Source: Wenyingzhuangia sp. 2_MG-2023
GTDB taxonomy: Bacteria > Bacteroidota > Bacteroidia > Flavobacteriales > Flavobacteriaceae
Assembly: GCF_030548295.1 (NCBI RefSeq)
Contig: NZ_JAUOSB010000012.1
Span: 1-64,000, forward strand
Reading direction: 5' to 3'
DNA: 64,000 nt
In this document: positions 27,367 to 59,719 of the stretch, piece after piece
Layout: each line of letters begins with the position of its first letter
How positions within the stretch are numbered: the first letter of the stretch is position 1
Notes under the pieces: model-generated
What the model was told of the DNA's origin: nothing
Databases searched by the model: none
Seen by the model: only the letters and a program-made list of their open reading frames with translations
Position numbers and translations under genes: made by a program

Positions 27367-27377
27367 TTCCTGAGAAT

Positions 27378-30983: not shown

Positions 30984-31027
30984 AAAAAATGTTTAATAAT
31001 TTCTATAATTAGTTGTTGTTAAGCCGT

Positions 31028-31070: not shown

Positions 31071-31112
31071 TTTTATTATATGTGTAAAGTGTTTATTTCA
31101 TAGTTTTTATTT

Positions 31113-32084: not shown

Positions 32085-32223
32085 GCTATTTTTAGGTCTA
32101 TATTAGTATATACCCAAACACATGAGCCTTTCACGGTTAAAAATGCAGGTTTAATGTTATGTTTACATTTAGAAAGGTTGTTAACTTTTAATTAACAAAA
32201 TAGAGAGGTTTGCAAAGAATAAC

Positions 32224-34169: not shown

Positions 34170-34193
34170 TTAATAAATTATTTTTAGTATTAA

Positions 34194-35426
34194 TTAATAA
34201 TTATTGGAATTATTAATTCCTGAAGCTAGATAAATAGTACCTATACTATTGTTATACACTCCACCATTATTGCTATTAAACAATGTTGCATCTACTGGAC
34301 TTGTTATTTTAAGAGTTCCAGCAGACAAATTATTTCCAGATATCAAAATAGATTCTTCATAAAAACCACTAGAGGTTGTATTTCTCCAATAACCAATTCC
34401 GTGATAGATGTCATTTGGTGAATTTGCTACTGAAATGGTATTGTTAATAATTTCTATGTTTTTTAAATAGGGATGAGCTGCAGTGCTAACATACACATAC
34501 ATTAATATACCCGAAGTTGTCATGGTATTGTTTTGAATTAGTGCTCCATCTCCATTTCTAATTTTAATAGCTCCACCCTCTCCAGCTGCGGGCCATCCAG
34601 AAATTGTATTATTTTCAATAATAACATCGTTAAAACTATGAACATAAATACCATGATCAGTTTCATCAAAATCTACCCACGATTCATTCCTACTGATCGT
34701 ATTTCCTGAGATAGAGGTTCCATCACTATTGTCATTAATAGCTGTTACAAAATATCCTTCTGCACCACTATTACCAAAAGTGTTGTTGGCTATTCCTGTA
34801 TCTACACAATCAACTGTATAAATACCTCGCCCACTATTTCCTAGTCTTCTTTTAAAAACATTCCCTTTTACCAACATATCATCACAATTGTACATTTGTA
34901 TGTAAGCATCTTGCGTATACGTTTTTGTAGTTCCTGCTTTTCTTCTTCCATAATCAAAAATGCAGTACCTAAAACTTGTGTTGCTAGCATTTCTAATGTT
35001 GATTCGGATGTTTCTAAACTGTATACCGTAAATATCAATATCTCTATTGTTGGAGCTCCAATATTGCTCTAGCATTTCAGTTGTTGATGTATCGTAAGCT
35101 GTAAATATTGGGGTTACGGAAGATTCTTTGTGAATGGTAATTCCGTTTTTTATAGCCAACTCTCCTGTAATTACGTACGTTCCAGGCTCAACGGCTATAG
35201 TATCTCCATAGGAAGCTGATTTTAAAACGGTATTGATCTCAGAAAAAGTCATTCCATTTGTAATCTTATGATTAGAAAACACTACAATAGTATCTTGATC
35301 CACAGAATCCTTTTCTTCGATTGCCTCTTCTTCAATTTCTTCCTCCATATCAACATTAGTGGAACTACAAGAAACAAAAAAAAGAAACCCCAATACAACT
35401 ACTAAAAAATCTTCTAATTTATACAT
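34194..35426 (-). CDS. right-handed beta-helix lipoprotein, candidate polysaccharide lyase
   Basis: A 410-residue lipoprotein (FFVSC lipobox), with an acidic linker (residues about 28-45) and then a parallel beta-helix. The helix begins ITNGMTFSEINTVLKSASYGDTIAVEPGTYVITGELAI, the typical first turn of PL6-type lyases, and continues with repeated N-N-T-I coils (VIIENNTISGW, GALIQNNTMTTS, IEIINNTISVA). Chondroitinase B and alginate lyases of PL6 share this opening and fold. I cannot pick out a certain Lys-Arg catalytic pair. Its position between the PL8 lyase and DUF4861 genes suggests it attacks dermatan/chondroitin-type chains or their branches. Confidence 0.75.
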   Translation of the reverse strand: MYKLEDFLVVVLGFLFFVSCSSTNVDMEEEIEEEAIEEKDSVDQDTIVVFSNHKITNGMTFSEINTVLKSASYGDTIAVEPGTYVITGELAIKNGITIHKESSVTPIFTAYDTSTTEMLEQYWSSNNRDIDIYGIQFRNIRINIRNASNTSFRYCIFDYGRRKAGTTKTYTQDAYIQMYNCDDMLVKGNVFKRRLGNSGRGIYTVDCVDTGIANNTFGNSGAEGYFVTAINDNSDGTSISGNTISRNESWVDFDETDHGIYVHSFNDVIIENNTISGWPAAGEGGAIKIRNGDGALIQNNTMTTSGILMYVYVSTAAHPYLKNIEIINNTISVANSPNDIYHGIGYWRNTTSSGFYEESILISGNNLSAGTLKITSPVDATLFNSNNGGVYNNSIGTIYLASGINNSNNY

Positions 35427-35447: not shown

Positions 35448-38400
35448 TTACATTTTTTTCATTGAAAATTTTCTAGGCAACCCATCTATACATTCTAACA
35501 AGACTACTGTATTGCCTTTTTTGTAAGTAATTGATTTGATAAAATTTAAATGCTCACTTTGCCATTTTCCATTTAAAGTAATGGCTACAGACACAGATCT
35601 ACTATAATTTCTGTATCTGTATTTCTCATATTCTTCAAAGTTCAAATCAGGTTGTACAGCACTGATTTCTATTTTATTTTGAACATCATCAATCATAATT
35701 AAACAAGGTTCTGACACTTGTTTTAAAACTCCATTATTTAAGTCTTTATCAGCTTCAAAAACCACATAACCTGTTGTATTTGTTGTTTTATAAGTAACGA
35801 TGTGAGCTACTTCATCAGCTCTTAATACACTATAACTAGTGTCTTTTTCAGCTTTTTCTTCAAATTTATTTTGGCTTTTTTCATCTAAAAAAGGATAAAT
35901 CACATATTGATAAGAAGCATTGTTGGGTGCCAAACCGTGGTCTATCCACCCTGTTGCATAATCTCCTTCCGTTTCTTTTACTCCTTTTCCTTTTGCATTC
36001 ATTTTACCCGTATTGATAGAGTATTTATTATGATAGGATTGTTGCTCTTTTTTCTGGATATAAGTATCATTTTGTGATAACAAATAATATCCATTTCCAT
36101 AAGGATCTATCACCCATTTCTTTTTTGCTGATACTTCTGACAACTTTATCAACGATGGTATTTTTTTAATCTTTCCTTCAGAAGAATACAATACTTTTTT
36201 TGCTTCTGGTAAAAAGGTTTGAAACAAATTGGTCTGTGTAGCATTTATAGAATCTATACTAGAAATATTACTTCCTATAGCTATCATTTTATCACCAAAA
36301 GAGAATACTGATTTTTTAGCTTTTAATTTTCCTGGATAACCATTTTTGGTATTTTCTCCATCTGCATTAGAACCACTACCTTCATTCAATATCATTCCAA
36401 AAACTCCATTTCCGTTTAATTCCGTTGCTCCTGCAAAAGTTTCATCGCTTCTAAACATCACCAATGGCTTACTAGGCTCTAATTCTTTAAAAGGCAAATA
36501 AATAACGGTAGCTCCCGGATATCGGTTCCAATCCCAGCCGTCTTGTTTAAAACCACTACCACTTTCTCCTTTGTTATTTAACAACTGTATGGTTCCGTTT
36601 GATGGATATCTACCATATCTATTTTCATCCACATATATTTCTGATGCCCAGACATATTTGTTATATCCTTTTACAATAGCAGCCCAATCATCATTTTTTC
36701 TATGAATGGCCGTGGCTGCATAGGGCATGGTTATGTATGATTTTAATTCTTGTTCTTTGATACCTTCTATATCTTTAAAAATAGAACTATTAAGCACGTC
36801 CTCTTCTCCCCAAAGTCTTATATAAGCAGCTGCAAACTCTTGATCTATTTTTGAATTCCCTCTAGGATTTCCAGCCTGTGCCATCATTAAATATTGAGGC
36901 CTTAAAGATTCTATTCCATTATTCTCTATAGGATGTCTTCCTGCATTACCAAATCCCCAATTAAAAATTTGACAATATTCACTTGTTTTTAAAAAAGCAT
37001 TTTTAAAGTTTTGATGTCCTTCGGTTCTAACTCTAAATCTTGTTCTGGATAATGTTTTAATTACTTTAGGAACATTTTGAAAAGCTCCAAAACCATAAGC
37101 AGGATAATGTCCATTATGATGCCATGAAGTTCCATCTACTTTAAATCCTCTTGGTTCGTTTTGTTGAGCCAAAATTGCAGACATATAATTGGAATAAGCT
37201 TTTAGCAATGCTGCTTGTTTCTCTTGATTTTCTTCTAAAAAAATCAACATTAAATGATAATACGATTGTGTGTTTAAGTAATCTATGTTTACATGAAAAG
37301 TACTTTCATCATCTAACAACATTCCTAAATTAAAAAGCCAATGCATACTATCTGCTACCTCTTTTAACAAACCTGCTTGATACAGTACTTTTCTCATGGT
37401 ATAAAAACCTTCTGCAATACCTCTTACAAAATATCCTACATGATGTCTTGTTCCACCATTAGAACCCGCTTGCCAACCTTGATCTAAAAAATATTTGGTT
37501 CCAAGCACAAACATACTTTCTATTTCTCGGGTTTCTTCCAGAGAAGATCTATCGTGAAAATGAGATAATTTTCTCATGATAGCTCCAAACTTCTTTACAT
37601 CATTATAACGTCGTTTTCCTTGCTGATTTTCATCAAAAAACTCTTGTTCCTCATAAACTGTTAACGGAGGCCCTAAAACAACTCCATCTTTTTCATAAAT
37701 CCCCATCTCATCAAAGTCCGATTTTAAACTATTGATATATGTTTTATACTTAGCAGGAACTGTTAAGTCTTGTGTAATTATTTCTTGAAATTTATTTAGT
37801 TCTAATCTTGTTGCAACAGAAATAGGAGCTGCCTCTAAGTTTTTAATACGATTAAAATTACTAGCCAAAGGCATCCAAAAGTCTTCTCTTAACTTTTTAT
37901 CTTTTTTTATGAAGGGAACTATCTCATCTGGATATTGATGTCTATCATCTTGGTATTGAGAAAATACAATGTCATCAAAAAACAATTCCCCTTGACTAGA
38001 AGTTGTGGTTACTTTAAAATAATCATAATCTACGGGTTCTCCTTTTTTAGGTGCATTTCCATACATTTCATAAAAAGGAACCCAAACTCTTCTCCATCCT
38101 TTAAAAGACAATTCTACATCAAAATACACTTGTTGCACTCCATCTTTTTCAAAAGAAATTGTTATGGTATCGTTTATAGCTTTTTCGTTATAAATAGAAA
38201 TATTTAGCGTAGGGCTTGCAGGAAAATAACTCCCGTATGCTAAAGGACTTTCCTCCATAGATACTGTTTTAAAGTGAGCTGTACCAAATGAACTCTGTTG
38301 GTTCCAACTCCACTTTAAAGAGCTATTTCCATATCTTTTATGCTTTTTACTAATTGATAAATCTCCTGCTGATTGATTGTAAAAATTTAAAATAGTTTTA

Positions 38401-38516
38401 CTTTCAAAAGATTCAACAGCAGGCAATTTTTCTTGTGCATATACTGTTACTACACTAAAAAAGATGAATATCAAATAAATTATTTGATGATTTAATTTTG
38501 AAAAAACACGAACCAT
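35448..38516 (-). CDS. PL8 chondroitinase ABC-type lyase, exported
   Basis: A 1022-residue enzyme, the same size as Proteus vulgaris chondroitinase ABC I. A signal peptide ends at VYAQ. Residues about 30-190 form the N-terminal carbohydrate-binding jelly roll (AVESFESKTILNFYNQ), followed by the alpha-toroid and beta-sandwich catalytic parts. By comparison with my memory of the Proteus enzyme, the catalytic residues are H467 and Y474 (in WHHNGHYPAYG), R527 (NAGRHP) and E626 (WASEIY). NRYGRY and GWDWNR are also kept. The enzyme eliminates beta-1,4 bonds next to uronic acid in chondroitin, dermatan or hyaluronan, giving unsaturated disaccharides for the GH88 encoded upstream. Confidence 0.93.
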   Translation of the reverse strand: MVRVFSKLNHQIIYLIFIFFSVVTVYAQEKLPAVESFESKTILNFYNQSAGDLSISKKHKRYGNSSLKWSWNQQSSFGTAHFKTVSMEESPLAYGSYFPASPTLNISIYNEKAINDTITISFEKDGVQQVYFDVELSFKGWRRVWVPFYEMYGNAPKKGEPVDYDYFKVTTTSSQGELFFDDIVFSQYQDDRHQYPDEIVPFIKKDKKLREDFWMPLASNFNRIKNLEAAPISVATRLELNKFQEIITQDLTVPAKYKTYINSLKSDFDEMGIYEKDGVVLGPPLTVYEEQEFFDENQQGKRRYNDVKKFGAIMRKLSHFHDRSSLEETREIESMFVLGTKYFLDQGWQAGSNGGTRHHVGYFVRGIAEGFYTMRKVLYQAGLLKEVADSMHWLFNLGMLLDDESTFHVNIDYLNTQSYYHLMLIFLEENQEKQAALLKAYSNYMSAILAQQNEPRGFKVDGTSWHHNGHYPAYGFGAFQNVPKVIKTLSRTRFRVRTEGHQNFKNAFLKTSEYCQIFNWGFGNAGRHPIENNGIESLRPQYLMMAQAGNPRGNSKIDQEFAAAYIRLWGEEDVLNSSIFKDIEGIKEQELKSYITMPYAATAIHRKNDDWAAIVKGYNKYVWASEIYVDENRYGRYPSNGTIQLLNNKGESGSGFKQDGWDWNRYPGATVIYLPFKELEPSKPLVMFRSDETFAGATELNGNGVFGMILNEGSGSNADGENTKNGYPGKLKAKKSVFSFGDKMIAIGSNISSIDSINATQTNLFQTFLPEAKKVLYSSEGKIKKIPSLIKLSEVSAKKKWVIDPYGNGYYLLSQNDTYIQKKEQQSYHNKYSINTGKMNAKGKGVKETEGDYATGWIDHGLAPNNASYQYVIYPFLDEKSQNKFEEKAEKDTSYSVLRADEVAHIVTYKTTNTTGYVVFEADKDLNNGVLKQVSEPCLIMIDDVQNKIEISAVQPDLNFEEYEKYRYRNYSRSVSVAITLNGKWQSEHLNFIKSITYKKGNTVVLLECIDGLPRKFSMKKM

Positions 38517-38559: not shown

Positions 38560-39816
38560 CTATTTCTCTTGAAGTCTTTTTAATCTAGACAAAGCTTCAA
38601 TATAATAGTAATCTGCATAAATTAATGCAACATCAATTTCCCAACCTAAAGATTTAGCTCCTGTAGAATGTCTTAAAAAAGCATCGTTAATTCCTACTCC
38701 TGAATATTCTGTAGAATTTAAACTCTTTAACATAGCCAATGCTGCATGGTAATATTTTTCTTGACTAGCTTTGTCTTCTACTAAAGTACTTAAATCAATT
38801 AAAGCACTAGCAACAACGGCTGCAGCAGAAGCATCTTTTTCTTCTTTTGGATTGTTTGCTACATCAAAATCCCAACAAGGAATCATATCTTCTGGCAACA
38901 AACTCAAATATGTATCGGCTAATACTTTCGCAAAATCTAAGAATTTTTTGTCCTTCGTTTCTTTGTATACCATTGTATATCCATAAACCCCCCAAGCTTG
39001 TCCTCTAGACCATCTGCTATTGTCTGCATAACCTTGTTTGGTGTGTCTATTTAATACTTTTCCTGATATAGAATCGTATTCCAAAACATGCCAAGAAGTA
39101 TGATCTTTTCTAAAATGATTATTCATGGTTGTTTCTGCATGTTTTACAGCTATATCATAATGCTCAGGATTTCCTCCATTTTTTGCAGACCAAAACAACA
39201 ATTCCAAATTCAGCATATTATCTATAATCGTAATATGTTGTTTCCATCTTGGATGCATTTTGTTAGACCATGATTTTATAGTTCCTACATTTGGATTGAA
39301 TCTGGTTGCTAATGAATTTGCAGAAGTTAATAGAATGTCTTTGTATTCTTTTTTATTTCCTATTTCAACTCCATTACCATAAGCAGGAAACATCATAAAA
39401 CCAATATCGTGGTGTTCTGTAATATTTTTAAAGTCTTCAAAAACCTCGGTACGTTTGATAGCTTCTTTTTTCCATTTTTCATTTCCAGTAACATCATAAG
39501 CATACCATAAAATTCCAGGATAAAAACCAGAAGTCCACATTAGTTTATCATTTTTCACTTGATGCCAATCACTATCTTCTTTTTCTATAAATCTAGGATG
39601 CATGGTTAAATCCGTTAATTTAGGAACCGATTTTTCTAATTGCGCTTCACAATCTGCAATGGCTTTTTTTAAAATATAAGCAGACAACGTATCTTTATTA
39701 GAAACTGTGATTGCCTTATTTGATTTTTGAGTTTCACCTTTACAACTTATCAAACCTAAACACAAGCTTAAGAAAGCCGTTTTTATCACATTAGGAACTA
39801 TTTTTTTTAGCATCAT
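38560..39816 (-). CDS. GH88 unsaturated glucuronyl hydrolase, lipoprotein
   Basis: A 418-residue protein with a lipoprotein signal (LGLISC). The alpha6/alpha6 barrel shows MWTSGFYPGILWYAYD, HHDIGFMMFPAYGNG with catalytic D137, IIDNMLNLELLFW with D199, and DNSRWSRGQAWGVYGY. GH88 hydrates the double bond of unsaturated glucuronyl disaccharides left by lyases, releasing a ketouronate and free N-acetylhexosamine. It is the first gene of the GH88-PL8-beta-helix-DUF4861 operon and lies downstream of a putative 22-bp-spaced repeat promoter. Confidence 0.93.
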   Translation of the reverse strand: MMLKKIVPNVIKTAFLSLCLGLISCKGETQKSNKAITVSNKDTLSAYILKKAIADCEAQLEKSVPKLTDLTMHPRFIEKEDSDWHQVKNDKLMWTSGFYPGILWYAYDVTGNEKWKKEAIKRTEVFEDFKNITEHHDIGFMMFPAYGNGVEIGNKKEYKDILLTSANSLATRFNPNVGTIKSWSNKMHPRWKQHITIIDNMLNLELLFWSAKNGGNPEHYDIAVKHAETTMNNHFRKDHTSWHVLEYDSISGKVLNRHTKQGYADNSRWSRGQAWGVYGYTMVYKETKDKKFLDFAKVLADTYLSLLPEDMIPCWDFDVANNPKEEKDASAAAVVASALIDLSTLVEDKASQEKYYHAALAMLKSLNSTEYSGVGINDAFLRHSTGAKSLGWEIDVALIYADYYYIEALSRLKRLQEK

Positions 39817-39877
39817 TCTTTTATTCTTTTTATTTAAATAATTGTTTTTACGCTCTCATCAGTACAAGAACGAATTG

Positions 39878-39939
39878 TAAAATTGAGTCTTCTTCTTAAA
39901 AAAAAGGAGGGGATTCTTATTCATATAAGAGGTATTTAC
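39878..39939 (-). promoter_or_regulatory. putative HTCS-type repeat promoter of the GH88-PL8 operon (weak version)
   Basis: GAGGGGATTC begins at 39907 and GAGGTATTTA at 39929, 22 bp apart, as in the two stronger sites at 41.5 and 47.7 kb. At the equivalent distance downstream on the minus strand (39885-39878) is CAATTTTA, a partial match to TAnnTTTG. The spacing agrees but the sequence match is weak. Confidence 0.4.
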
Positions 39940-40117
39940 TGTTCTCACTTTCCTAAAAAACCTTTGAACACTGAAATCCAAATACTTAAAAAAACTATTG
40001 TTTTTTTGTTATTGAAAACTCTTTTAAAAATCACATAACAGATGAGTGATCTTAATAACTTCCATAATTCATCTCCTAGATTGTTCCTTATTTGAACGAT
40101 TGATCAGCATATAGATA

Positions 40118-40152
40118 AACAAGGACAGATAATTTTGAAGTCTGTCCTTGTT
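40118..40152 (-). terminator. hairpin after the T9SS-protein gene
   Basis: AACAAGGACAGA (40118-40129) pairs perfectly with TCTGTCCTTGTT (40141-40152) across an 11-nt loop, 35 bp past the stop codon. The following minus-strand sequence is only moderately U-rich, so it may stabilise the message as well as end it. Confidence 0.65.
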
Positions 40153-40186
40153 AGAAATCAAACTTTGATTCTTATTTTTATGATTC

Positions 40187-41449
40187 TTACTTCAAAATTA
40201 TTTTTTTAACCAATACACCACCTGTTTCAGATTCTAACCTTAAAAGATACAGACCTCGTGGAAAGCTACTTACGTTTAGATTTTGTGTAAACGAACCTTG
40301 GTGCACTAATTTTCCTGTAATATCTAAAATCATGATGTTTTTTACACTAACAATGTCATTCCCTACTATGTTTAAAATATCTGTTGCTGGATTTGGATAT
40401 ACTGAAACGTTTTCATTTAAAACAGTATCTTCTATAGATAAAGTTGACAAGTCTGTAGAGATTACTGAACCACCAACAGTTACATTATCTATCGAGAAAT
40501 CACGAGACATATTCCCATCAAAATCTTTCACAAATCTCAACTCTACTACATCACCTTCATCTGTAGACAAAGCAGTATAACTTATTGATATTTCAGCTAC
40601 ACTACCTCCTGGTAAATTAGTAACTCCTGATGTTTTTAACTCTTGACCATCTGTAACATTATACAAAGAAACAACGACTTTGTTATATGAAGAACCTGGA
40701 TTGTAAACGTTCGTTACCACACTATATACAACTGTTTCTTCCATGGTATCATCAAATGTAAAAGCAACACCTTGACCAATTGCCACTGACAATCCATCTA
40801 CAAAAATAGCCCCATCACTCACTCCATCTCCATTATCTCCATCATCGATAGTATTTGTTATTTCAGTATCTCCAATTGGAGACCATGATCCGGCTGGAGA
40901 CAATACAGATGGAGGGGTAGGACCAACCGCTATTCCATTCAATTCTAAAATATCAATCGCATAATTACGGTAAGCACCCGCTTGTGTTTTCACATACCTC
41001 ACTTCTAAGACATCACCTGCATCAGTAGCTACAGCAGTATAGTTTAACTCCACTGCTTTGATATCATCTCCTGCAGCGTGATTAAAAGGTTGAACTCCAG
41101 CAACCACTGATGTTAATTCTGTTCCATCTGTTTTGTTATACAAATACACTGTTACATTACAGTAAGAAGTATTTACATTGTATAATGTTGTGTTTAGAGT
41201 ATAAGTGGCACCATTTTCAATAGTTCCATCAAAAGTAAAGTATACTGCTTCATCTATAGCCGTACCATCTGCTCCGTCAATAAATTTTGCACCATCTCCA
41301 GCTCCATCACCATTATCTTCATCGTTTGTAACATCTGTTATGATTACGGATCCTACACCAACAGAGTACGAACCTGTTGCGGTAACTTGTGCTTTTGAAA
41401 TGGTAGCAATTCCAAATAAAAGAATTGTTAATAAAGTAATTTTTTTCAT
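40187..41449 (-). CDS. secreted protein with two aspartate-rich repeat domains and a T9SS sorting domain
   Basis: A 420-residue protein with a signal peptide ending at SKAQ. Two copies of one domain of about 145 residues follow (about 23-172 and 185-327). Each begins with a short Gly/Ser strand and a glycine/aspartate-rich loop (DNGDGAGDGAKFIDG at 45-59; DNGDGVSDGAIFVDG at 205-219) and has matching later strands (NVTVYLYNKTDGTEL / KVVVSLYNVTDGQEL; GDVLEVRYVK / GDVVELRFVK; YAIDILELNG / FSIDNVTVGG). Residues about 348-420 are a type A C-terminal sorting domain (VSVYPNPATD, ending VLVKKIILK). I recognise no known catalytic family. The loops look suited to calcium binding and the folds to carbohydrate binding. 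It has its own promoter of the shared repeat type, so it belongs to the chondroitin locus. Confidence 0.75.
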   Translation of the reverse strand: MKKITLLTILLFGIATISKAQVTATGSYSVGVGSVIITDVTNDEDNGDGAGDGAKFIDGADGTAIDEAVYFTFDGTIENGATYTLNTTLYNVNTSYCNVTVYLYNKTDGTELTSVVAGVQPFNHAAGDDIKAVELNYTAVATDAGDVLEVRYVKTQAGAYRNYAIDILELNGIAVGPTPPSVLSPAGSWSPIGDTEITNTIDDGDNGDGVSDGAIFVDGLSVAIGQGVAFTFDDTMEETVVYSVVTNVYNPGSSYNKVVVSLYNVTDGQELKTSGVTNLPGGSVAEISISYTALSTDEGDVVELRFVKDFDGNMSRDFSIDNVTVGGSVISTDLSTLSIEDTVLNENVSVYPNPATDILNIVGNDIVSVKNIMILDITGKLVHQGSFTQNLNVSSFPRGLYLLRLESETGGVLVKKIILK

Positions 41450-41482
41450 ACTAAAAGATTTAAAGGTTAATAATTATATTGA

Positions 41483-41544
41483 CAAAATTAACTTGACTTT
41501 TAGTTTTTAAAGAGGGGCTAGCTTTTCCAAAAAGAGGGGCTAAC
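41483..41544 (-). promoter_or_regulatory. promoter with paired GAGGGGCTA(G/A)C direct repeats, T9SS-protein gene
   Basis: GAGGGGCTAGC (41512-41522) and GAGGGGCTAAC (41534-41544) are direct repeats with a 22-bp period. On the minus strand a -7 box TAATTTTG (41490-41483) follows 21 bp after the proximal copy, and no -33 TTTG is present, which suggests a promoter that depends on an activator bound at the repeats. Confidence 0.65.
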
Positions 41545-41796
41545 TAGCAAAACACCATTAATTATCAACACAATAGATAATTTTCTAAGTTTGAATAAGG
41601 CTCTAATAGAATTACCTTGATGTAAAATTCTTTAAACCTAAAATTAAGATCTTTTAACTCTTTAGTAAAACTTCTATTGAGTAATACTATCTGTATTTGT
41701 ACTATCTATTGAAAAACATACAGAGCTTTTGTTTTTATAAATGTTTAGGCTTACAGCACAAATATCTATATAGTTCTCTTTTGTACTTAAAACAAC

Positions 41797-41855
41797 AAAA
41801 GTTGTGTCGCTAAAACTATAGTGGGGTTTCTACAGCCTTAACAAACACAACTTTT
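41797..41855 (-). terminator. long-loop inverted repeat after the DUF5017 gene
   Basis: AAAAGTTGTGT (41797-41807) and ACACAACTTTT (41845-41855) are perfect 11-bp inverted copies 37 bp apart, about 35-90 bp past the stop of the DUF5017 gene. On the minus strand the 3' arm runs into UUUUGUUGUUUU. The loop is long for a terminator, so the role is uncertain. Confidence 0.45.
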
Positions 41856-41888
41856 ATTCTAAAATTTTAGCACTTATTTTAAAAGCAA

Positions 41889-42830
41889 CTATTCTACAAC
41901 TTCAATAGTCAATTCTTTTATACCTTCTTTACTTCCATATACCGTTGTATTGTTGCCTAGGAAGGTTGCTGTATAAATTCCAGCTTCTGTGTAAGTATGT
42001 GTAAAAGAAGACAAACGTTCTGAATACGATTTTAAAGCTGCTCCTTGGTCTGGTAAAATAGCTGTTAAATCAATTCGTTCTGTAATTAACCAATCTTCAT
42101 TAGTATAATCTGCAGAAGTTCCATTCATTCTAAAAAAACCATCAGACCAATAAATCCATTGATCTTTGTTGGTATCATCATTGGTTCCTTGAACATTGAC
42201 TGTTTGCCATTCCGTTGATTCAAAATCTGTAACAGGTAAAGATGTTGATTTTCCTTCTACTGCCAACTCAATATTAAAATTATTAAAACGATACTCTCCC
42301 TGTCTGTTTCCTTCTGATGTTTTTCCATCTGCTAGAATTTTAAAAGCAATATAAACTGGTTTTCCTTCAGATGCTAAATCAGAAATATCTGCAATTCCAG
42401 AATTTGTCCACGCATACGTTCTAGCGGTAGGTAACACAAATTTATCGGAAATATCAATCCACGTTGCCAAAGCTATGGCTTCTGCAGTTCCTGACCCATC
42501 ATAATCTGTAGAGTATTGCACTGACAATCCAGGATCTGATAAACTTGTACCATTTTGATAGTGTTGAGCACAATCAAAGGACATATTAATAGTTCCATCA
42601 ATATTAGTTCTGTCTCTATGTTGATATTCATATCCAAATTCTCCTGAATAAAAACTTAAAAAATTAGGTGCATTTTCTATACTAAACTCAACCTCTTCAC
42701 CTACCTTAACAGTTTCATTACTTACGGTAATATCAAAATTAGGTTCGCTTACTTCTTCAAAATCCTCACAACTTGTAAACACAAGTGCTAAAAGAGAAAT
42801 GCTTGTTATTATTTTATGTATACTTTTCAT
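41889..42830 (-). CDS. DUF5017 family surface lipoprotein
   Basis: A 313-residue lipoprotein (LVFTSC lipobox). It opens with PNFDITVSNETVKVGEEVEFSIENAPNFLSFYSGEFGYEYQHRDR, the characteristic first domain of DUF5017, then a beta-sandwich (residues about 90-250, WIDISDKFVLPTARTYAW, NFNIELAVEG) and a final PKD-like strand set (AGIYTATFLGNNTTVYGSKEGIKELTIEV). It follows SusD directly, the position of SusE/F-like surface glycan-binding proteins. It probably helps bind the chondroitin-type substrate on the cell surface. No catalytic residues are seen. Confidence 0.82.
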   Translation of the reverse strand: MKSIHKIITSISLLALVFTSCEDFEEVSEPNFDITVSNETVKVGEEVEFSIENAPNFLSFYSGEFGYEYQHRDRTNIDGTINMSFDCAQHYQNGTSLSDPGLSVQYSTDYDGSGTAEAIALATWIDISDKFVLPTARTYAWTNSGIADISDLASEGKPVYIAFKILADGKTSEGNRQGEYRFNNFNIELAVEGKSTSLPVTDFESTEWQTVNVQGTNDDTNKDQWIYWSDGFFRMNGTSADYTNEDWLITERIDLTAILPDQGAALKSYSERLSSFTHTYTEAGIYTATFLGNNTTVYGSKEGIKELTIEVVE

Positions 42831-42862
42831 ATGTATGTGCTTTTAAATGATACGATGGAATT

Positions 42863-44494
42863 TTACCAACCTTTTGTTTGTGACAAGTTGGTATTTACTC
42901 CTAATTCTTGTTCTGGAATAGGTAATATGTAATGTTTAGAAATATCAAAATTGTTGTACCCATCTAAGTAGTTAAAAGACGAACTGAAACTATTGTATCT
43001 TACTTCTAAAACATCTGGTTCATCACCACTTAACGGAATACCATCATCTCCTAAATTTGCTTCTGCATAAATACTCCAATCAGTATTTAAAAACTCTGGA
43101 TCTGCTGCTAGAGTTTCCATCAATTCTTTGGTTTCTGTAACCTTATCTTCTAAAACTCCCCATCTTAAAAGATCGTATTTACGATGTCCTTCAAAACACA
43201 ACTCCAATCTACGTTCCTCCTGTATTAATTCTTCATTAATAACCGTTAGTGGTGTTGCATTGGCTCTATTTCTCACTCTGTTAACAGCATCTAAAGCCAA
43301 ACTAGAACCAGGAGTAATGTTGTTTTCTGCTTCTGCATACATCAACAATACATCAGAAAATCTTAACACAGGCCAGTGATGAGCTCCATAACTTGAATTA
43401 GTATTGTTACTTTCTAAAGATCTTCTGTATTTGGATGCTACTTCTAAAAATTGATTGTTCAATAACTCAGGTTCACAATCATTTAATCTTGGAACATAAT
43501 AAGGGTTCACGTTCCACAAACCTCTTTCATCAGCAAGATCTGATCTGTATTTTTGAATTAAAGAAATGGTTGCATTCATCAAGGCAAAACCTTTCCCACA
43601 ACCTTCATCGTGCACTAACATTCCGGATACTGCTCCTAATTTTGAGGCTTGATACACATCTGAATTGGCAAAAGAAAAACCTATTTGAAACAATACTTCC
43701 TTAGGCTCATATATTTCCATTGCTAGGTTATTAAACACATCTTCATAACTAGGATTTAGTTCATAATAAGGATCGTTTATAATGGTTTCTGTCCATTCTT
43801 TAGCTTTTTCATACGCTCCAGGTTCATTAAATGGTGCACCTGCCATATATAAGTATGCTCTTGCTAACAAACCTCTTGCAACTCCTTTTCCTGCTCTACC
43901 TGGAGTTACATCAGCATCTTCAGGTAAATTTTGTTCTGCAATTTCTAAATCTGAAATAATTTGTTTGTAAACATCTATTCCTGGAGTTCTAGGTAAAAGT
44001 TGTCCTGAAGTGTTTTCTAATTGCATTGGAATTCCTTCTTCACCTCCAAATGCTTTTTCTAAATCAAAATAAAGAAACGCTCTTAAAAAATGTCCTTCTG
44101 CAATTAACTCTTGTTTTAAACTCTCTTCTAAATTTGATTTTTTTACTCCTGTTAAGAAAGTATTAACACTTACAATTCCTTCATAATAATTGGTCCAAAC
44201 TGCTTTTAACTTTGTGTCTGATGCAGAGAAATCATTTTTAATATAACCAAATGCTCCTACTCTGTTGTAATGTCCTTCATCTGTATAACTAGAAGGGTAC
44301 AATGCGTTAATTTCTGCTTCTCTATACGCACTCACTACTCTACTATATACCCCTGCTAATCCTGCTATAGCACCAGATTCTGAAAGATATAAAGTTTCTG
44401 AAGAGATATTATCTTTTTGTTCTATATCTAATAAATTGTTACATCCTTGTATAAACAGAAATGTTACTGATATGATTATTAATCTTATTTTCAT
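42863..44494 (-). CDS. SusD/RagB-family lipoprotein of the chondroitin-type locus
   Basis: A 543-residue lipoprotein (FIQGC lipobox) with NLLDIEQKDNISSETLYLSESGAIAGLAGVYSRV at the N-terminus, DVLLMYAEAENNI, VNRVRNRANATPL and ERRLELCFEGHRKYDLLRWG near the C-terminus. These are the usual SusD helices and C-terminal lid contacts. It lies 11 bp after its SusC gene and 32 bp before the DUF5017 gene. Its likely ligand is a chondroitin- or hyaluronan-type oligosaccharide, judged from the PL8 and GH88 genes nearby. Confidence 0.92.
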   Translation of the reverse strand: MKIRLIIISVTFLFIQGCNNLLDIEQKDNISSETLYLSESGAIAGLAGVYSRVVSAYREAEINALYPSSYTDEGHYNRVGAFGYIKNDFSASDTKLKAVWTNYYEGIVSVNTFLTGVKKSNLEESLKQELIAEGHFLRAFLYFDLEKAFGGEEGIPMQLENTSGQLLPRTPGIDVYKQIISDLEIAEQNLPEDADVTPGRAGKGVARGLLARAYLYMAGAPFNEPGAYEKAKEWTETIINDPYYELNPSYEDVFNNLAMEIYEPKEVLFQIGFSFANSDVYQASKLGAVSGMLVHDEGCGKGFALMNATISLIQKYRSDLADERGLWNVNPYYVPRLNDCEPELLNNQFLEVASKYRRSLESNNTNSSYGAHHWPVLRFSDVLLMYAEAENNITPGSSLALDAVNRVRNRANATPLTVINEELIQEERRLELCFEGHRKYDLLRWGVLEDKVTETKELMETLAADPEFLNTDWSIYAEANLGDDGIPLSGDEPDVLEVRYNSFSSSFNYLDGYNNFDISKHYILPIPEQELGVNTNLSQTKGW

Positions 44495-44505
44495 AATTGT
44501 ATTTT

Positions 44506-47500
44506 TTAAAATGATGCTTTTAAACCTAAACTAAATGTTCTTTGTTTTGGGTATGCAGAATAATCTATTCCAGGCATAATTGCTGAACTGTTTACAGAAA
44601 CCTCTGGATCAAAACCAGAATAATTTGTCCAAGTAATTAGATTTTGTCCAGATGCATATAATTCTAAACTATTTAATTTTAATTTTTCCCAGTTCTCTAC
44701 TTGAAAACGGTACGATAAGTTCACTGTTTTTAACCTTATGTAAGATCCGTCCTCTACAATTCTAGAAGAAATATCTTCAAATCCTTGTCCACCTGCTCTG
44801 TACATATCTGTATCTTGATTATCAATAGTCCATCTATTTACAGCAGTTGCTAATTGATTTTGTCCTACCGTATTTAAGTCTTCAAAAACCAATCTATTGG
44901 CATTTAAAATATCATTACCATAAGACCATTGAAAGAAAGTACTTAAGCTAAAGTTCTTATATTTAAATGTATTTCCTAATCCACCAAAATGTTTTGCCAA
45001 ACCATTCCCAATAATCGTTTTGTCATCATTTGTAATCACTCCATCACCATTTAAATCTTTGTATTTTTCATCTCCTGCTTGGTGACTTGAGTAACTTGGT
45101 TGATTAGCTAACAACGTATGAGTAGTTTCTGTAGGGTCATAATTTTCAAAATCTTCAGGCTGGTAAACTCCGTCAGATATAAACCCATACATATTACCTA
45201 AAGGTTTATTTTCTTCTACTATATATTGTTGACTACTTAGTTTCCAGTAATAATTTGGAGTTCCAAAAATGGGTTTGCTTTCTGGTAAAGACATTACTTT
45301 ATTTTGGTTGAATGAAATGTTAAAATCTGTAGACCAACTAAAGTTTTTGGTTTTTATATTTTGAGTATTAAAACTAAATTCAAAACCTCTGTTTCTTACA
45401 TGACCTGAATTTACCCACTGAGTAGAAAACCCTTGAGATGGAGCTGCATCTGAATTTAACAATAAATCTTTGGTGTCTTTTTGATAAATTTCTGCAGTAA
45501 AAGAGACTCTATCTTTTAAGAATGCTACATCTATCCCCGCATTAAATTGTGATGTGGTTTCCCATTGCAAATCTAAATTTGCACCAAAACTAGTCGTTCT
45601 TTGTCCTAATATTGTTTGACCATCTATAAAATATGAAGCGTTATCTGAAGTTAAGACTTGATTTCCTGCATTGTAATCAAGTATTCTATCATTTCCTGTT
45701 TTACCATATCCAACTTTAAATTTAAGTTGAGAAAAAAGGTCTAAATCTTTAATAAATCTTTCCTCTTCTGCTTTCCAAGATGCTGCTATAGAAGGAAAAT
45801 AACCCACTCTGTTATTCTCAGGAAAAGCTGACGAAGCATCTCTTCTAAGAGTAGCAGTTAGTAAGTATTTGTTTTTAAAACTATAGTTTAAACGTCCTAA
45901 GAAAGAAAGCACACTTCTTTTTTCAGTACCATTTACATCGGTTCCACTGTTTAGTGTTCCTTCATCTATAGCATTAATTCCTAAATGCTCTACATATTGA
46001 GGAATGTCTATAGACTTAAAATAAGTTTGTTCAAATTCTCTTATGTTTAATGTAGCACCTACAAGCGCATCAATTCTATGATCGTTAAAGGTCTTTTTAT
46101 AACTTAATGTATTTACAGAAGAATAATATTTCCATCTTCTATTGTCCATGGATCCATTAATACCATCTATTTTGTTTACTAATCTTCCATAAACAGTTTG
46201 GCTGTTGTAAAACTGACCTGTTTTTCTGTGTTGAGAATTATAACTCCCTTTAACATCTAAAGTTAACTGTGGTGTTATTTTATACATTAAACGCAGATTT
46301 GTTATTAACTGATCTGTTTCACTTTTTCTATATTCATTGTTTAATGATATAATTGGATGCCATGAAACAATGTTTGTCAAATCATACTCATCGCTAATGG
46401 TATTTAAAGGATCTTCACCTCCATAATCTAAAAATTTATTAGCAACAGGTGTATAACCTATTAAACTTCTTAAAAAAGAGTAAGAAGAGGTTCCTTGAGT
46501 ACTTAACCCTTCTTGAGAATAATCTGTGTAAATTAAATCTACAGTAGCATCTAACTTATCATTTATTTTATGATTTAAAGTAAGCCTACCATTTAGTCTA
46601 TTGTACTCAGAATTCAACAAAGTTCCTTGATCCTCAATAGCATTTATAGAAGCATTAAATTTTGTTTTTTCTGCTCCACTAGAAATTTTAATTTTGTGAG
46701 TTTTAGAAAATGCCGTTCTAAAAGCTTCATCTTGCCAATTTCGGGTCGGTGCATCCACATAATCTTCTAAATCACCTACCATAACACTGTTTCCTGTTAC
46801 TTCATCTGGTATAGAAAAGAACCTTAAACTCGTTGAGCCTTCGTTCAATTCTAAATTTAATTTTATGTATTCATAAGAATTTAAAACGTCTAAAGTTTTA
46901 GATACTTCTTTAACATCAAGCCTTGTTTCATAACTAATTTTTGTTTTTCCTTTTTTAGCTCGTTTGGTGGTTAGTATAATAACCCCATTAGATCCTCTTA
47001 CACCATAAATAGCTGTTGCAGATGCATCTTTTAAAATATCCATAGACTCTATATCCGATGGATCTATCAAACCAGGATTAAAATCTTCTACAATAAATCC
47101 ATCAACAACATATAAGGGTGAGTTGTCTCCGTTTACGGTATTCCCACCTCTAATAACGATGCTTGATGCACTACCAGGTTCACCATTTCCAGAACTTACT
47201 TGTACACCAGAAACTCTACCTGCTAAAGCTTCATCAAAATTTGCTACGGGGGCTTCAGTTAATTTCTCCATATCTACAGAAGCTACGGAACCAGTTAAAT
47301 CCTTCCTTTGAACATTTCCATATCCAATAATAACAACCTGATCCAATACGCTTAAATTTGGAACCAGCTTTATATTGTATACAGATTCTTCTGTAACTGT
47401 AATTTTTGAAGGCTCATACCCCACAAAGCTAAATTCCAGCTGTGCACCTTTATTTACACTTATTACAAAACGACCATCGAAATCGGTAACCTCTACAGTT

Positions 47501-47691
47501 GAATTTGATTTGTTAAAAATATTGACCCCAGGTAATGGCATCCCCAATTCATCTACTACGGTTCCTTCTATCTCTTTTTTCTGGGCATTTGATGAAAAAA
47601 CACCAAATACTCCAACCAGAATTAAAAATAATATTGCCTTTTTATATACTAAATTTGGCAAAAGTAACTTGTGCTTGTTTTTCATATTCAT
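44506..47691 (-). CDS. SusC/RagA-type TonB-dependent transporter of the chondroitin-type locus
   Basis: A 1061-residue outer-membrane transporter: signal peptide ending at SNAQ, carboxypeptidase-D-like domain (EIEGTVVDELGMPLPGVNIFNKS), TonB-box-like VLDQVVIIGYGNVQRK, plug (GRVSGVQVSSGNGEPG; DIESMDILKDASATAIYGVRGSNGVIILTTK) and a barrel ending GLKASF. It has no STN domain, consistent with control by the hybrid two-component protein encoded just upstream. It starts a SusC-SusD-DUF5017 operon. An in-frame ATG two codons later (47685) is an equally good start. The promoter carries a GAGGGGCTAGC site. Confidence 0.94.
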   Translation of the reverse strand: MNMKNKHKLLLPNLVYKKAILFLILVGVFGVFSSNAQKKEIEGTVVDELGMPLPGVNIFNKSNSTVEVTDFDGRFVISVNKGAQLEFSFVGYEPSKITVTEESVYNIKLVPNLSVLDQVVIIGYGNVQRKDLTGSVASVDMEKLTEAPVANFDEALAGRVSGVQVSSGNGEPGSASSIVIRGGNTVNGDNSPLYVVDGFIVEDFNPGLIDPSDIESMDILKDASATAIYGVRGSNGVIILTTKRAKKGKTKISYETRLDVKEVSKTLDVLNSYEYIKLNLELNEGSTSLRFFSIPDEVTGNSVMVGDLEDYVDAPTRNWQDEAFRTAFSKTHKIKISSGAEKTKFNASINAIEDQGTLLNSEYNRLNGRLTLNHKINDKLDATVDLIYTDYSQEGLSTQGTSSYSFLRSLIGYTPVANKFLDYGGEDPLNTISDEYDLTNIVSWHPIISLNNEYRKSETDQLITNLRLMYKITPQLTLDVKGSYNSQHRKTGQFYNSQTVYGRLVNKIDGINGSMDNRRWKYYSSVNTLSYKKTFNDHRIDALVGATLNIREFEQTYFKSIDIPQYVEHLGINAIDEGTLNSGTDVNGTEKRSVLSFLGRLNYSFKNKYLLTATLRRDASSAFPENNRVGYFPSIAASWKAEEERFIKDLDLFSQLKFKVGYGKTGNDRILDYNAGNQVLTSDNASYFIDGQTILGQRTTSFGANLDLQWETTSQFNAGIDVAFLKDRVSFTAEIYQKDTKDLLLNSDAAPSQGFSTQWVNSGHVRNRGFEFSFNTQNIKTKNFSWSTDFNISFNQNKVMSLPESKPIFGTPNYYWKLSSQQYIVEENKPLGNMYGFISDGVYQPEDFENYDPTETTHTLLANQPSYSSHQAGDEKYKDLNGDGVITNDDKTIIGNGLAKHFGGLGNTFKYKNFSLSTFFQWSYGNDILNANRLVFEDLNTVGQNQLATAVNRWTIDNQDTDMYRAGGQGFEDISSRIVEDGSYIRLKTVNLSYRFQVENWEKLKLNSLELYASGQNLITWTNYSGFDPEVSVNSSAIMPGIDYSAYPKQRTFSLGLKASF

Positions 47692-47711
47692 GTTTTAGAT
47701 TAGACTTAGTA

Positions 47712-47773
47712 CAAACTTAAAATGCTTTTAAATTTTTAAAAAGGTAGTCCTTATTCAATTTTGAGGGGCTAGC
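47712..47773 (-). promoter_or_regulatory. promoter with GAGGGGCTAGC element, susC-susD-DUF5017 operon
   Basis: A -7 box TAAGTTTG (47719-47712) lies 21 bp downstream of AAGGTAGTCC (starting 47741), itself 22 bp from an exact GAGGGGCTAGC (47763-47773). Distances are identical to the site at 41483-41544. The proximal half-site is degenerate (AGG retained). No -33 TTTG is visible. Another CAGGGG lies at 47792. Confidence 0.6.
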
Positions 47774-47827
47774 TGTTCAGACCTTTAAAAACAGGGGTAT
47801 TGACAAGTTATATGAGAATGATTACGT

Positions 47828-47896: not shown

Positions 47897-50800
47897 TTAT
47901 TCATCTAAACTAGATGAAGCATTTGTACGACATTCTGACGGCAATTCGTTAAACAACTCCTTAAACGTTTTTCTAAAGTGTTTTAAATCATTAAAACCAA
48001 GACTAAAGGCTATTTCAGAAATATTTAATTGTGTATTTACAATCAGCTGTCTTGCTTTTTTAAGTTTTATGGTTCTTATAAATTCAATAATAGTTTGGTT
48101 TGTTAACGCTTTTAACTTTCTATACAAAGCAGACCTACTCATCCCCATATCCGATATAAAATCTTGAATAGCATATTCAGAATTTTGCATATTATCTTCT
48201 ATCAAGTTGATGGCTTTTTGTAAAAATAATTCATCTTCAGACTCAACTTCTACTTTTTTAGGCTCAAGAATAATCTCTTTTCTATACTTTTCTATAAGTG
48301 CTTTTCTTGCCTTGATTAAGTTATCAACCCTAATTTCTAAAACGGTTGAATCAAAAGGTTTTAAAATATATGCATCTGCTCCGGTTTTGTATCCTTGTTT
48401 CTGAGATTCTTCTGATGTTTTGGCAGTTAACAAAATAACAGGAATATGACTGGTAGAAATATTGGTTTTAATTTTATCACAAAACTCCATTCCATTCATT
48501 TCTGGCATCATTACATCGCTAATAATTAAATCTATAGTCTGATTTTTAGTGATCTCCAATCCAACTTTTCCATTCTCGGCCTCTAGTATATTATAATTCT
48601 TTTTTAAGATACTTTTCACAAAGCTTCTTACCTCAAAATTATCTTCAACAACTAAAATTGTGGGGCTTTCATCAGTTACTTCATTTTCTGTTTCTATATT
48701 TTCTGTGACAATATCTTCTGATAAAAAATCCGAAGTGTTGGTTAAAAACAAATTTTGATTTTGATCTATTTTGTTTTCATCAACAATTTGATCTTCTCTT
48801 AGGTGATTTTTACCTAGTGGCAACAAAACAATAAAAGAAGTTCCTTTTCCTTCTTTACTAACTACTTTAATAGATCCATGATGCAATTTGATTAAACTTT
48901 TAGTCAATGCTAATCCTATTCCCGTTCCTGTACGGACATTTTCGTTTTGCTCTAATTGATAAAACCTCTCAAAAATAAGTTTGATGCTTTTTTTAGGTAC
49001 TCCTTTTCCGCTATCTTTTACAACTACTTTTACAAAATCTTTAGCCGTATCTTTTTTATCTTTCTTGTTAATTATTGATACTTCTATGCTAATTGCTCCA
49101 TTGTCTGGTGTAAACTTAAAAGCATTTGATAATAAATTAAGGATTACTTTTTTTAAGTTGATTTTATCATACCATAAGTAAATATTAGCATTAGATGGTG
49201 TATAAGAGTAATGAATATTTCTTACCCTTGCCAACTCATCAAAAGAAAGTTTGATGTTTTCTATAAACGGAACAATATTAGATCTGGATGCTTTTAGTTG
49301 AATTTTACCGGATTGACTTTTTCTAAAATCTAACAATTGATTTACTAGCTGTAACAAAGTTTTTGCATTTCTATACATAATTTTATGCTGATTTTGCATA
49401 AACTCATTCCCCATACCATCTTTAATTAAACTTTCTAAAGGCCCAATAATTAAAGTTAAGGGAGTACGAAAGTCATGAGATATATTAGTAAATAACTGGA
49501 GCTTTAACTGGTTAATTTCTTCTAATTTTTCTTTTTCTAATCTTTCTTGTTTTAATTCATTTTTTTCCTGAATTCTTAAAAGGCTATACTTTCTAATAAT
49601 TAAAAGAATAATTACTATGATAATTGTATAAATAAGGTAAGCCCACCAGGTTTTCCATGGTGCAGGAAGTATTTTTACTTTTATAGTTGCTCCTTTTTCA
49701 TTCCACACACCATTGCTATTTGATGCTTTTACTTTAAAAGTATAGGTTCCTGCATCTAAGTTGGTATAGGTTGCTGATCTTTTGTTTCCTATATAATTCC
49801 ACTCCTCATCAAAACCATCTAATTTGTAAGCATATTCACATTTTTTAGGTTTAGAATATCCTAGCGCAACAAAATTAAAGCTGAACACATTGTGATGATG
49901 TTTTAAAACAAGTTCGTTATTTTTAGCTAAAAAAGGTTGGTTGTTTACAAGTATAGAAGTAATTGAAACAGGAGGAATAAAAGAACTTTCTACCATACGA
50001 TTGGGATTAAAATAATTAACACCATTTGCTCCTCCAAACATCAAATTATTATTTTTTAGTTTTATGGCAGCTCCATAATTAAATTCATTTTCTGTCAATC
50101 CATCAGAAACATTAAAATTATCAAATTTACGAGTGGATAAATTCAAACGACTTAAACCATTATTGGTACTCAGCCAAAGATTGTTATCATCATCTGGCAA
50201 TACACTATAAATAACTTCGTTTGGCAAGCCATTATTTATATCGTATTTGGTACTTTTTTGAGTTTTCGCTTCGTAATAATACAATCCATCTCCTTCTGTA
50301 CCTATCCATAAATTATGTAATGCATCTTCATAAACATCTAAGGTTGCACTAACCGTATATTCATAAGTTTGCTTTTTTCTATAAACTAATGGTTCTATTT
50401 TATAGGTTAGTGTATTTAATTTTGCCAAACCTTTATTGCCTCCAACCCACAATGTGTTTTTTTCTGAAGCCTGAGAAATGGTGTAAATAATAGAGCCTAT
50501 ACTGTTTAAAGAATCTTTAATTCTAACAATTTTATTGTTTTTAAAAACATTTAAACCACCTCCAGAAGTTCCTATACAAATATTGTTGGTGTCATCTTCA
50601 AATAGAGATATTACACGGTTACTGCTTAAACTGGTGGTATCGTTTAATTTATTTTTATACTTTTTAAATACTTTGGGTTGTTTGTGTACCTCTAAAAAAT
50701 TTAAACCACCGTCATGAGTTCCAATCCATAAATTTCCTTTTTTTGTTTTGATGATAGATTTTACATTGTCTGCACTGATGCTATTAGGATTTTTACTATC

Positions 50801-52009
50801 ATGTCTATAATATTTAAACAGTTGAGTGCTTTTATTATAAAAATTGATTCCACCACCTTCTGTACCAATCCATAAATTTTGATGTTCATCTTCGGCAATA
50901 GAACTCACCACTTTGTAATTCAATTTAGATTTGGTTAAACCAGCAGTAAAGCTTTTAAACAAATCATAATTTCTATCGTAATAATTAATTCCACCCGCAT
51001 AAGTACCAATCCATATGTCTTTTTTAGTATCCTCAAAAATCTCATAGATAGAATTCTGACTCAGACTGCTTGGGTTATTTTCTTGATGTTGAAAATGACG
51101 TATAAGAGTTTTATCCTGATCAATAATATAAAGTCCCGTATATGTACCCACCCATAAATGACCTAAATAATCTTGAAAAACACTTCTAACCTCACTGGAT
51201 ATTGATTGAATTGCATTGGTTTGAATCTTAAATTTTTGAAAATTATTAGTATCCTTGTTAAAAAACCAAAGACCATTTTGATATCCTAACCAGATAGATC
51301 CCTCTTTATCTTCATAAATAACAGGAGCATAATTATCTGTTTCTTTTTTTACAGTACTTGGAGGATATGAAAAAGTTTGATGTTTATTATTTTCTGGATT
51401 AAAAACATCTATATTTTCTGTATTACATATCCATATATCTCCTTTATTTTGAATGCATAAACTTCTTATTTTGTTACTAGACAACTCTTTTTTATTCGCT
51501 GTATATTGGGTGATTGTATTACTTTTTACATTAATTTTTTCCAAACCTAGATTTGTAGCCAACCAAATATTTTGATTTTTATCTGCTGTAATATCCCATA
51601 TTTCTTTGGTTTTAATTAATGTATCTTGCTTGTGACTATAACGCTGAAAGTTGTTTTCTTCTGGAATAAATTTATTCAAACCATTCATGGTTCCAACCCA
51701 AATATCTCCTTGTTGATCTTGAAATAAAGACCTCACAAAATTATTACTTAGGCTATAAGTATCTTGAGAATTATGACGGTAATTTATAAAGTTATGACCA
51801 TCAAATCTATTTAAACCATCTCTGGTTCCAAACCATAGAAATCCTTCACGATCTTGAAGAATACAAAGCACAGAACTTTGAGACAATCCTTCCGCCAAGG
51901 AAAATTGTTTGAACTTTAATGCTTGATTTTCTTTTAAATTATCTTGACTACAAAGAAAGTTATGAAATAAGATAAAACATAAAAATGTTATTCTTTTTAA
52001 TGATTTCAA
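47897..52009 (-). CDS. hybrid two-component system sensor/regulator (HTCS)
   Basis: A 1370-residue single-protein signalling system. A signal peptide precedes a periplasmic double beta-propeller of repeated reg_prop motifs (W-F/V-G-T-x-x-G-L, residues about 35-680) and a Y_Y_Y domain (about 705-780). A transmembrane helix spans 788-806. The kinase part has H845 in NISHDFRTPLTLI and the ATP-binding boxes NLLSNAFKFTP and GTGIGLAL. The receiver carries D1165 (LIISDVMMPEMNG). An AraC-type helix-turn-helix ends the protein (about 1275-1365). Known members sense an oligosaccharide in the periplasm and activate the neighbouring locus. The start is TTG (52009); no in-frame ATG fits the signal peptide. 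It probably binds the GAGGGGCTAGC repeats. Confidence 0.95.
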   Translation of the reverse strand: MKSLKRITFLCFILFHNFLCSQDNLKENQALKFKQFSLAEGLSQSSVLCILQDREGFLWFGTRDGLNRFDGHNFINYRHNSQDTYSLSNNFVRSLFQDQQGDIWVGTMNGLNKFIPEENNFQRYSHKQDTLIKTKEIWDITADKNQNIWLATNLGLEKINVKSNTITQYTANKKELSSNKIRSLCIQNKGDIWICNTENIDVFNPENNKHQTFSYPPSTVKKETDNYAPVIYEDKEGSIWLGYQNGLWFFNKDTNNFQKFKIQTNAIQSISSEVRSVFQDYLGHLWVGTYTGLYIIDQDKTLIRHFQHQENNPSSLSQNSIYEIFEDTKKDIWIGTYAGGINYYDRNYDLFKSFTAGLTKSKLNYKVVSSIAEDEHQNLWIGTEGGGINFYNKSTQLFKYYRHDSKNPNSISADNVKSIIKTKKGNLWIGTHDGGLNFLEVHKQPKVFKKYKNKLNDTTSLSSNRVISLFEDDTNNICIGTSGGGLNVFKNNKIVRIKDSLNSIGSIIYTISQASEKNTLWVGGNKGLAKLNTLTYKIEPLVYRKKQTYEYTVSATLDVYEDALHNLWIGTEGDGLYYYEAKTQKSTKYDINNGLPNEVIYSVLPDDDNNLWLSTNNGLSRLNLSTRKFDNFNVSDGLTENEFNYGAAIKLKNNNLMFGGANGVNYFNPNRMVESSFIPPVSITSILVNNQPFLAKNNELVLKHHHNVFSFNFVALGYSKPKKCEYAYKLDGFDEEWNYIGNKRSATYTNLDAGTYTFKVKASNSNGVWNEKGATIKVKILPAPWKTWWAYLIYTIIIVIILLIIRKYSLLRIQEKNELKQERLEKEKLEEINQLKLQLFTNISHDFRTPLTLIIGPLESLIKDGMGNEFMQNQHKIMYRNAKTLLQLVNQLLDFRKSQSGKIQLKASRSNIVPFIENIKLSFDELARVRNIHYSYTPSNANIYLWYDKINLKKVILNLLSNAFKFTPDNGAISIEVSIINKKDKKDTAKDFVKVVVKDSGKGVPKKSIKLIFERFYQLEQNENVRTGTGIGLALTKSLIKLHHGSIKVVSKEGKGTSFIVLLPLGKNHLREDQIVDENKIDQNQNLFLTNTSDFLSEDIVTENIETENEVTDESPTILVVEDNFEVRSFVKSILKKNYNILEAENGKVGLEITKNQTIDLIISDVMMPEMNGMEFCDKIKTNISTSHIPVILLTAKTSEESQKQGYKTGADAYILKPFDSTVLEIRVDNLIKARKALIEKYRKEIILEPKKVEVESEDELFLQKAINLIEDNMQNSEYAIQDFISDMGMSRSALYRKLKALTNQTIIEFIRTIKLKKARQLIVNTQLNISEIAFSLGFNDLKHFRKTFKELFNELPSECRTNASSSLDE

Positions 52010-54087: not shown

Positions 54088-54091
54088 GTTT

Positions 54092-58551: not shown

Positions 58552-58569
58552 TTTTAATTACTCTTTAAA

Positions 58570-59712: not shown

Positions 59713-59719
59713 TATTTAC

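Follow-up and report, generated by a model that had tools for sequence, protein, structure and literature searches.

The closest described relatives of the element treated here are operators of hybrid two-component systems (HTCSs), and those found in print are, as far as our searches reach, from Bacteroides. In the accessible parts of the study by Ravcheev et al. (2013, PMC3878776), direct-repeat operators with a mean distance of 21 bp are predicted for 16 HTCSs—among them HTCS_Hya (BT3334) for chondroitin and hyaluronan. These operators (examples are 16+5, 12+9, and 14+6) are read as sites of a dimer on one DNA face, and the same parts give no −7 register. BT0366, one of the HTCSs of this set, shifts its promoter DNA (PMC5061871), and gel shifts are described for the response-regulator parts of BT4124 and BT4663 (PMC11253607). 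Here, we describe a candidate HTCS operator of a flavobacterium, found in a 64,000-nt stretch (the window) of Wenyingzhuangia sp. 2_MG-2023, whose genome comprises 3.98 Mb. The operator stands before susC, a gene for a protein with a type IX secretion system (T9SS) sorting domain, and the GH88-PL8 operon of a predicted chondroitin/hyaluronan polysaccharide utilization locus (PUL). Judged from sequence comparison, these three sites are, with good confidence, activator operators of the HTCS encoded at 47897..52009 on the minus strand, which would switch the three units together; this HTCS is likely the regulator and probably an activator.

The operator unit reads TGAACAG-x-TA-x-CCCC and is repeated after 22 bp, with a −7 box (TAnnTTTR) that starts at position 61. 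All genes of the locus are on the minus strand; the repeat reads GCTAGCCCCTC on the sense strand. An earlier note on this DNA had described the repeat as an 11-mer, with GAGGGGCTAGC at 41512–41522 and 47763–47773 and GAGGGGCTAAC at 41534–41544. These words are found there, and they are real and spaced; however, the GAGGGGCTAGC words cover only one box of a larger operator—CCCC on the sense strand—and the GAACA box about 10 bp upstream of CCCC had been overlooked. The susC operator (47740..47779) consists of a first half TGAACAGCTAGCCCCTC (47779–47763) and a second half (47757–47741) in which GAATA is followed by a degenerate CCCC box. Hence, the degenerate copy noted at 47741 is present and keeps GAATA, but has only CC left of CCCC. 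The −7 box of susC, TAAGTTTG, follows at 47719–47712, which corresponds to operator positions 61–68. The operator of the T9SS-protein gene (41511..41550) keeps CCCC intact in both units, at the 22-bp distance; its GAACA boxes are degenerate (TGCTAG, GAAAAG), and its −7 box is TAATTTTG at 41490–41483. At the GH88-PL8 operon (39906..39945), the halves read AGAACAG...ACC and GAATA...CCCC, and a −7-like box CAATTTTA lies at 39885–39878. Measured against TAnnTTTG, the −7 box of the sigma-A promoter of Bacteroidota, the match is exact at susC and the T9SS-protein gene—in both cases with the 21 bp from the proximal repeat that the note had counted—and partial at GH88, which the note had already recognized as a weaker version in the same register.

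The two half-sites are similar, stand in direct repeat, and lie 22 bp apart, close to the 21 bp or so of the operators predicted by Ravcheev et al. Over 19 sites, half-to-half identity peaks at a shift of 22 bp (0.557), followed by 21 bp (0.381), against an expected 0.252; this test is partly circular for sites found with a matrix, while nine susC sites were not chosen for their spacing. The 13 sites from outside the window align without gaps in MAFFT, with T1, G2, C35, C37, T61, A62, and T65–T67 invariant. Of 18 sites, 16, among them the three in the window, have no TTG at positions 34–46, the −33 region. The note had listed the missing −33 element as part of the promoter code. This holds for the three sites, but no −33 motif is identifiable in Flavobacterium johnsoniae either (PMC7366714), so that its absence is not special, proves nothing by itself, and is dropped as an argument.

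With the Bacteroides operators, the window operator shares two direct-repeat half-sites before operons of the regulator's own locus. It differs from them by its 22-bp period, its flavobacterial family, its GAACAG and CCCC boxes, and the fixed −7 register shown here. Class II activators of the AraC/XylS family use direct-repeat sites, the proximal one at the −35/−33 region, and carry two helix-turn-helices (HTHs) per domain. The window operator resembles this arrangement in its direct repeat, its proximal site near the −33 region, and the two HTHs; in contrast, the regulator is receiver-controlled within a hybrid sensor kinase and meets a Bacteroidota promoter with a −7 TAnnTTTG. For the sensor part of the window HTCS, the best match among solved structures is chain 4a2l (E 1.4e-113), from the heparin HTCS BT4663. 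Among the titles listed by our literature searches, with most subscription journals outside their coverage, none is on a flavobacterial HTCS operator. As far as they reach, the kind of operator is known, and the motif, the register of 22 bp and position 61, and the flavobacterial regulon are new.

Conservation was followed in 39 HTCS-homologue regions: 34 from a sample of 397 genomes of the family, that of a paralogue in the own genome, and those of four HTCSs from other genomes of the genus. A homologue of the window HTCS at E 1e-250 or better is present in 29 of the 397 genomes, own genome included. Eight regions (L140–L146, L152) keep the order HTCS-susC-susD, with susC 55–67% identical and DUF5017 in seven. 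The HTCS–susC gap of every one of these eight loci, which were chosen by synteny, shows the same two-unit operator and −7 box, and thus the alignment of related loci that the note had proposed bears it out. Before the gene with the T9SS sorting domain, a site with a −7 box at 61 is found in six of the eight loci, and none was found in L146 and L152; these genes match the window gene mainly via the sorting domain and are thus positional counterparts rather than proven orthologues. By eye, a stretch from about YYEDFR is common to the T9SS proteins of L140, L142, and L144 and to a second PL8 lyase of the own genome (on contig C45), where it lies inside the lyase; it might represent a secreted module that binds glycans. 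Seven other genomes have GH88 closely followed by PL8, and six of these show a similar operator. Counting the window, the GH88 upstream score is at least 13.7 in seven of eight genomes (752 tiled background stretches have their 95% point at 5.0), and a −7-like box, by a loose pattern, stands at 60–61 in five. In L145, a near-identical operator recurs at a further susC-like region (near oriented position 15012), where an extra C moves the −7 box to 62; this might be a PUL unit that has been duplicated.

A stretch conserved upstream of susC could also be part of the susC leader, as an RNA element or another element acting in cis. This is very unlikely here: the stretch lies upstream of the −7 box and, hence, outside any transcript of that promoter; it is also present before the T9SS and GH88 genes and has the 22-bp period of a direct repeat.

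At the level of single words, the signal is modest. Exact GAGGGGCTARC has three occurrences in the genome, all in the HTCS locus; one mismatch gives 14 places in the genome versus 10 for the backwards pattern, and two mismatches give 4 in the window versus 7.8 expected, that is, no enrichment. When a gap of 8–14 bp is allowed, the genome has a single paired 11-mer (41512–41544). The single word is weak alone; its spaced arrangement and conservation carry the evidence. Chance C-rich words in AT-rich promoters would fit the lack of enrichment, and also the T9SS site, which loses significance once its −7 box is left out. Nevertheless, out-of-sample ranking, specificity across the genome, and conservation contradict chance already for susC and GH88-PL8 and make it highly unlikely.

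The ranking rests on a matrix of 11 sites from the eight orthologous loci in other genera, initially picked by eye and free of window sequence. With its −7 part included, the first three ranks in the window are susC (29.2 bits), GH88-PL8 (25.2), and the T9SS-protein gene (17.8), followed by 3.6; the best of 30 shuffled windows reaches 13.5. Without the −7 part, the scores are 20.4 for susC, 19.3 for GH88, and 9.2 for the T9SS site, with 7.6 next; the shuffled windows then have a largest score of 17.5, exceeded by susC and GH88 only, and a mean best of 10.2. In a leave-one-out scheme over nine loci, trained on susC operators only and with the −7 part excluded, the susC operator ranks first in 9/9 loci, and a −7 box lies at position 61 in all nine. 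In the window, the same training places the GH88-PL8 site at rank 2 (14.3, next 9.7); the T9SS site is missing from the five matches listed. It is the weakest regulon member and stands out only with its −7 box. The GH88-PL8 site, the weakest in the note, is the one that gains most from comparison across genomes.

A sequence-only model (R1) built from the 13 non-window sites was run against the own genome. Its top four matches score 25.0 (41483–41545; the T9SS site), 24.3 (47712–47779; the susC site, E 1.3e-4), 21.6 (C45:9646–9709), and 20.5 bits (39877–39944; the GH88-PL8 site), and the fifth falls to 14.0. Hence, in a genome-wide scan of the kind that the note had proposed, the operator is not widespread, with four top sites and then a gap. 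All four belong to functionally related genes: three to the PUL in the window, and the one on contig C45 to a PL8 lyase of 1272 residues that ends in a T9SS tail (L209:5795–9613) and lies behind the site. This lyase adjoins DctP/DctM transporter genes and lies about 15 kb from a paralogous HTCS, which points to a possible cross-regulation of two PULs. As for autoregulation, no operator upstream of the HTCS is among the matches listed for the matrix in the window or for R1 in the genome.

The window HTCS combines a propeller sensor (Reg_prop), Y_Y_Y, HisKA, HATPase_c, a receiver (Response_reg), and an AraC-type HTH (HTH_18) in one chain by Pfam, and the operator is associated with its clade. 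An R1 match at E 0.005 is found in 25 of the 397 family genomes, and 15 of these 25 carry the HTCS, against 29/397 overall (p 3e-13). Leaving out the eight training genomes, 7/17 carry it (expected 0.9, p 6e-6); the count is 6/16 (expected 0.8, p 5e-5) when the own genome is removed too. HTCSs of the same clade (42–54% identical) often head PULs with other genes. In such non-orthologous PULs, the stretch from the HTCS stop codon to the next start codon scores at least 9 for 15/23 same-clade HTCSs and for 0/21 other HTCSs (p 5e-7). This version replaced one with a fixed 450 bp (15/24 versus 0/28), in which 7 of the 28 controls had no same-strand gene downstream and some control promoters lay beyond 450 bp. 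The clade is also marked by its second recognition helix, D-[LI]-K-x-F-R, in place of SPSYFAK, NPKYFSK, DPLYFSR, and others elsewhere; the C-terminal helix of the window HTCS reads GFNDLKHFRKTF. L085 has the same DLKYFR helix and no same-strand gene within 1500 bp. In the same-clade loci L161, L163, and L171, the operator is followed at about the same distance by TGAAATTGC in place of TAnnTTTG, perhaps a variant of the −7 box.

A code universal to HTCSs was considered and rejected, as no HTCS in a set of 28 of other types (L172–L175 and 24 from the own genus) reaches a score of 9, and the stretches after the same 24 and four HTCSs of the family show no shared geometry by eye. In the relatives L016–L024 (9 of 65 loci), there is one weak match only (L023, 12.7 bits), too little to extend the operator beyond the family. 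In a sample across the order (395 genomes) and among 119 genomes related to G127, no further HTCS turned up at E 1e-290.

Could another regulator—for example, the paralogous HTCS (C45:25099–29157, 49% identical) or an AraC protein—own these sites, with the window HTCS a mere neighbour? The paralogue belongs to the same clade and has a related operator variant downstream (ACAACAATATACCCCC...), and the window-like site before the PL8 lyase on its contig makes cross-talk possible. Moreover, HTCS and PUL genes travel together, and co-occurrence alone cannot separate the regulators. However, the operators lie directly beside a window-type HTCS in 8/8 orthologous loci and follow the clade into PULs with other genes, and under R1 the site downstream of the paralogue itself scores lower (13.8 bits). 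We therefore regard another regulator as unlikely. The single regulon under HTCS 47897–52009 that the note had put forward is thus supported by synteny, genome specificity, and the tracking of the HTCS clade.

Several observations pull away from this assignment. Every window site has at least one degenerate box, and the T9SS score without its −7 box (9.2) lies below the mean best of the shuffled windows. The GH88 upstream site of G121 scores only 6.3, and G127, G140, and G121 show no −7-like box at 60–61 before GH88. Ten genomes match the operator and carry no HTCS at the cut-off, against about two expected at E 0.005; their best sites score from −1.3 to 26.6 under the operator matrix, and some, such as those of L225, L227, and L232 (at least 16), may genuinely serve an HTCS that is less closely related. 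For eight of the 23 same-clade HTCSs, no good site precedes the gene that follows; L090, despite its DLKYFR helix, has no operator there. Finally, the p-values ignore shared ancestry—the loci are related, and three come from one genus—and are guides only, and the training sites were picked by eye before leave-one-out and outside data were brought in.

The register suggests how activation might proceed. In Flavobacterium psychrophilum, the −7 box TAnnTTTG extends from −12 to −5 (PMC9723704). Hence, position 61 would correspond to −12; the operator would run from about −72 to −34, with its final CCCC at about −39 to −35, which would place the operator where an activator can touch the polymerase at the −33 region. 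By analogy with the HTCS family, the regulator would be phosphorylated once its presumed periplasmic sensor binds a glycosaminoglycan oligosaccharide; a putative dimer would then cover the operator from one DNA face. In each unit, GAACA(G) and CCCC lie one helical turn apart, such that the two HTHs of the AraC-type domain might enter successive major grooves. The proximal CCCC—near the position of a −33 element and 22 bp before the −7 box—would serve to recruit RNA polymerase. In this way, a single signal would induce all three units, susC-susD-DUF5017, the T9SS-protein gene, and GH88-PL8, at once; binding, activation, ligand, and start sites are predictions of this model.

The gene content fits the predicted substrate, as PL8 lyase, GH88, susCD, and HTCS are all recognized by Pfam. 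Downstream of the HTCS follow, all on the minus strand, the susC-like TonB receptor (44506..47691), the susD-like gene (42863..44494), and a DUF5017 protein (41889..42830) that, by its spacing, is probably in the susCD operon. The protein with the T9SS sorting domain (Por_Secre_tail) is encoded at 40187..41449, the GH88-like enzyme at 38560..39816 (28.8 bits, cut-off 26.6), and the PL8 lyase (Lyase_N, Lyase_catalyt, Lyase_8) at 35448..38516. Two more genes (32967..35426; DUF4861 and one without a Pfam match) are, again by spacing, probably part of the GH88-PL8 operon. On one side, an adjoining susCD PUL (22551–32781) has its own extracytoplasmic function (ECF) sigma factor and FecR-type anti-sigma factor and differs in regulatory type from the HTCS PUL. 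On the other side, directly upstream of the HTCS, 52675–63985 holds sulfatase, GH2, heparinase II/III-like, GH88, GH2, and T9SS-tailed genes without the operator of the HTCS locus. Neither this operon nor the contig beyond (L179, L180) has an R1 match at E 5, and both are therefore left out of the regulon.

HTCSs control much of the polysaccharide use in Bacteroidota. The defined 69-bp promoter–operator unit lends itself to regulon prediction, to the design of binding tests, and to asking which HTH residues read which box. More tentatively, and somewhat short of an even chance in our judgment, there might be a clade-wide promoter code, in which D-[LI]-K-x-F-R reads CCCC, the first helix reads the variable GAACA, and the operator lies 22 bp before the −7 box with no −33 element. 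If true, regulons would be predictable from sequence in unstudied genomes.

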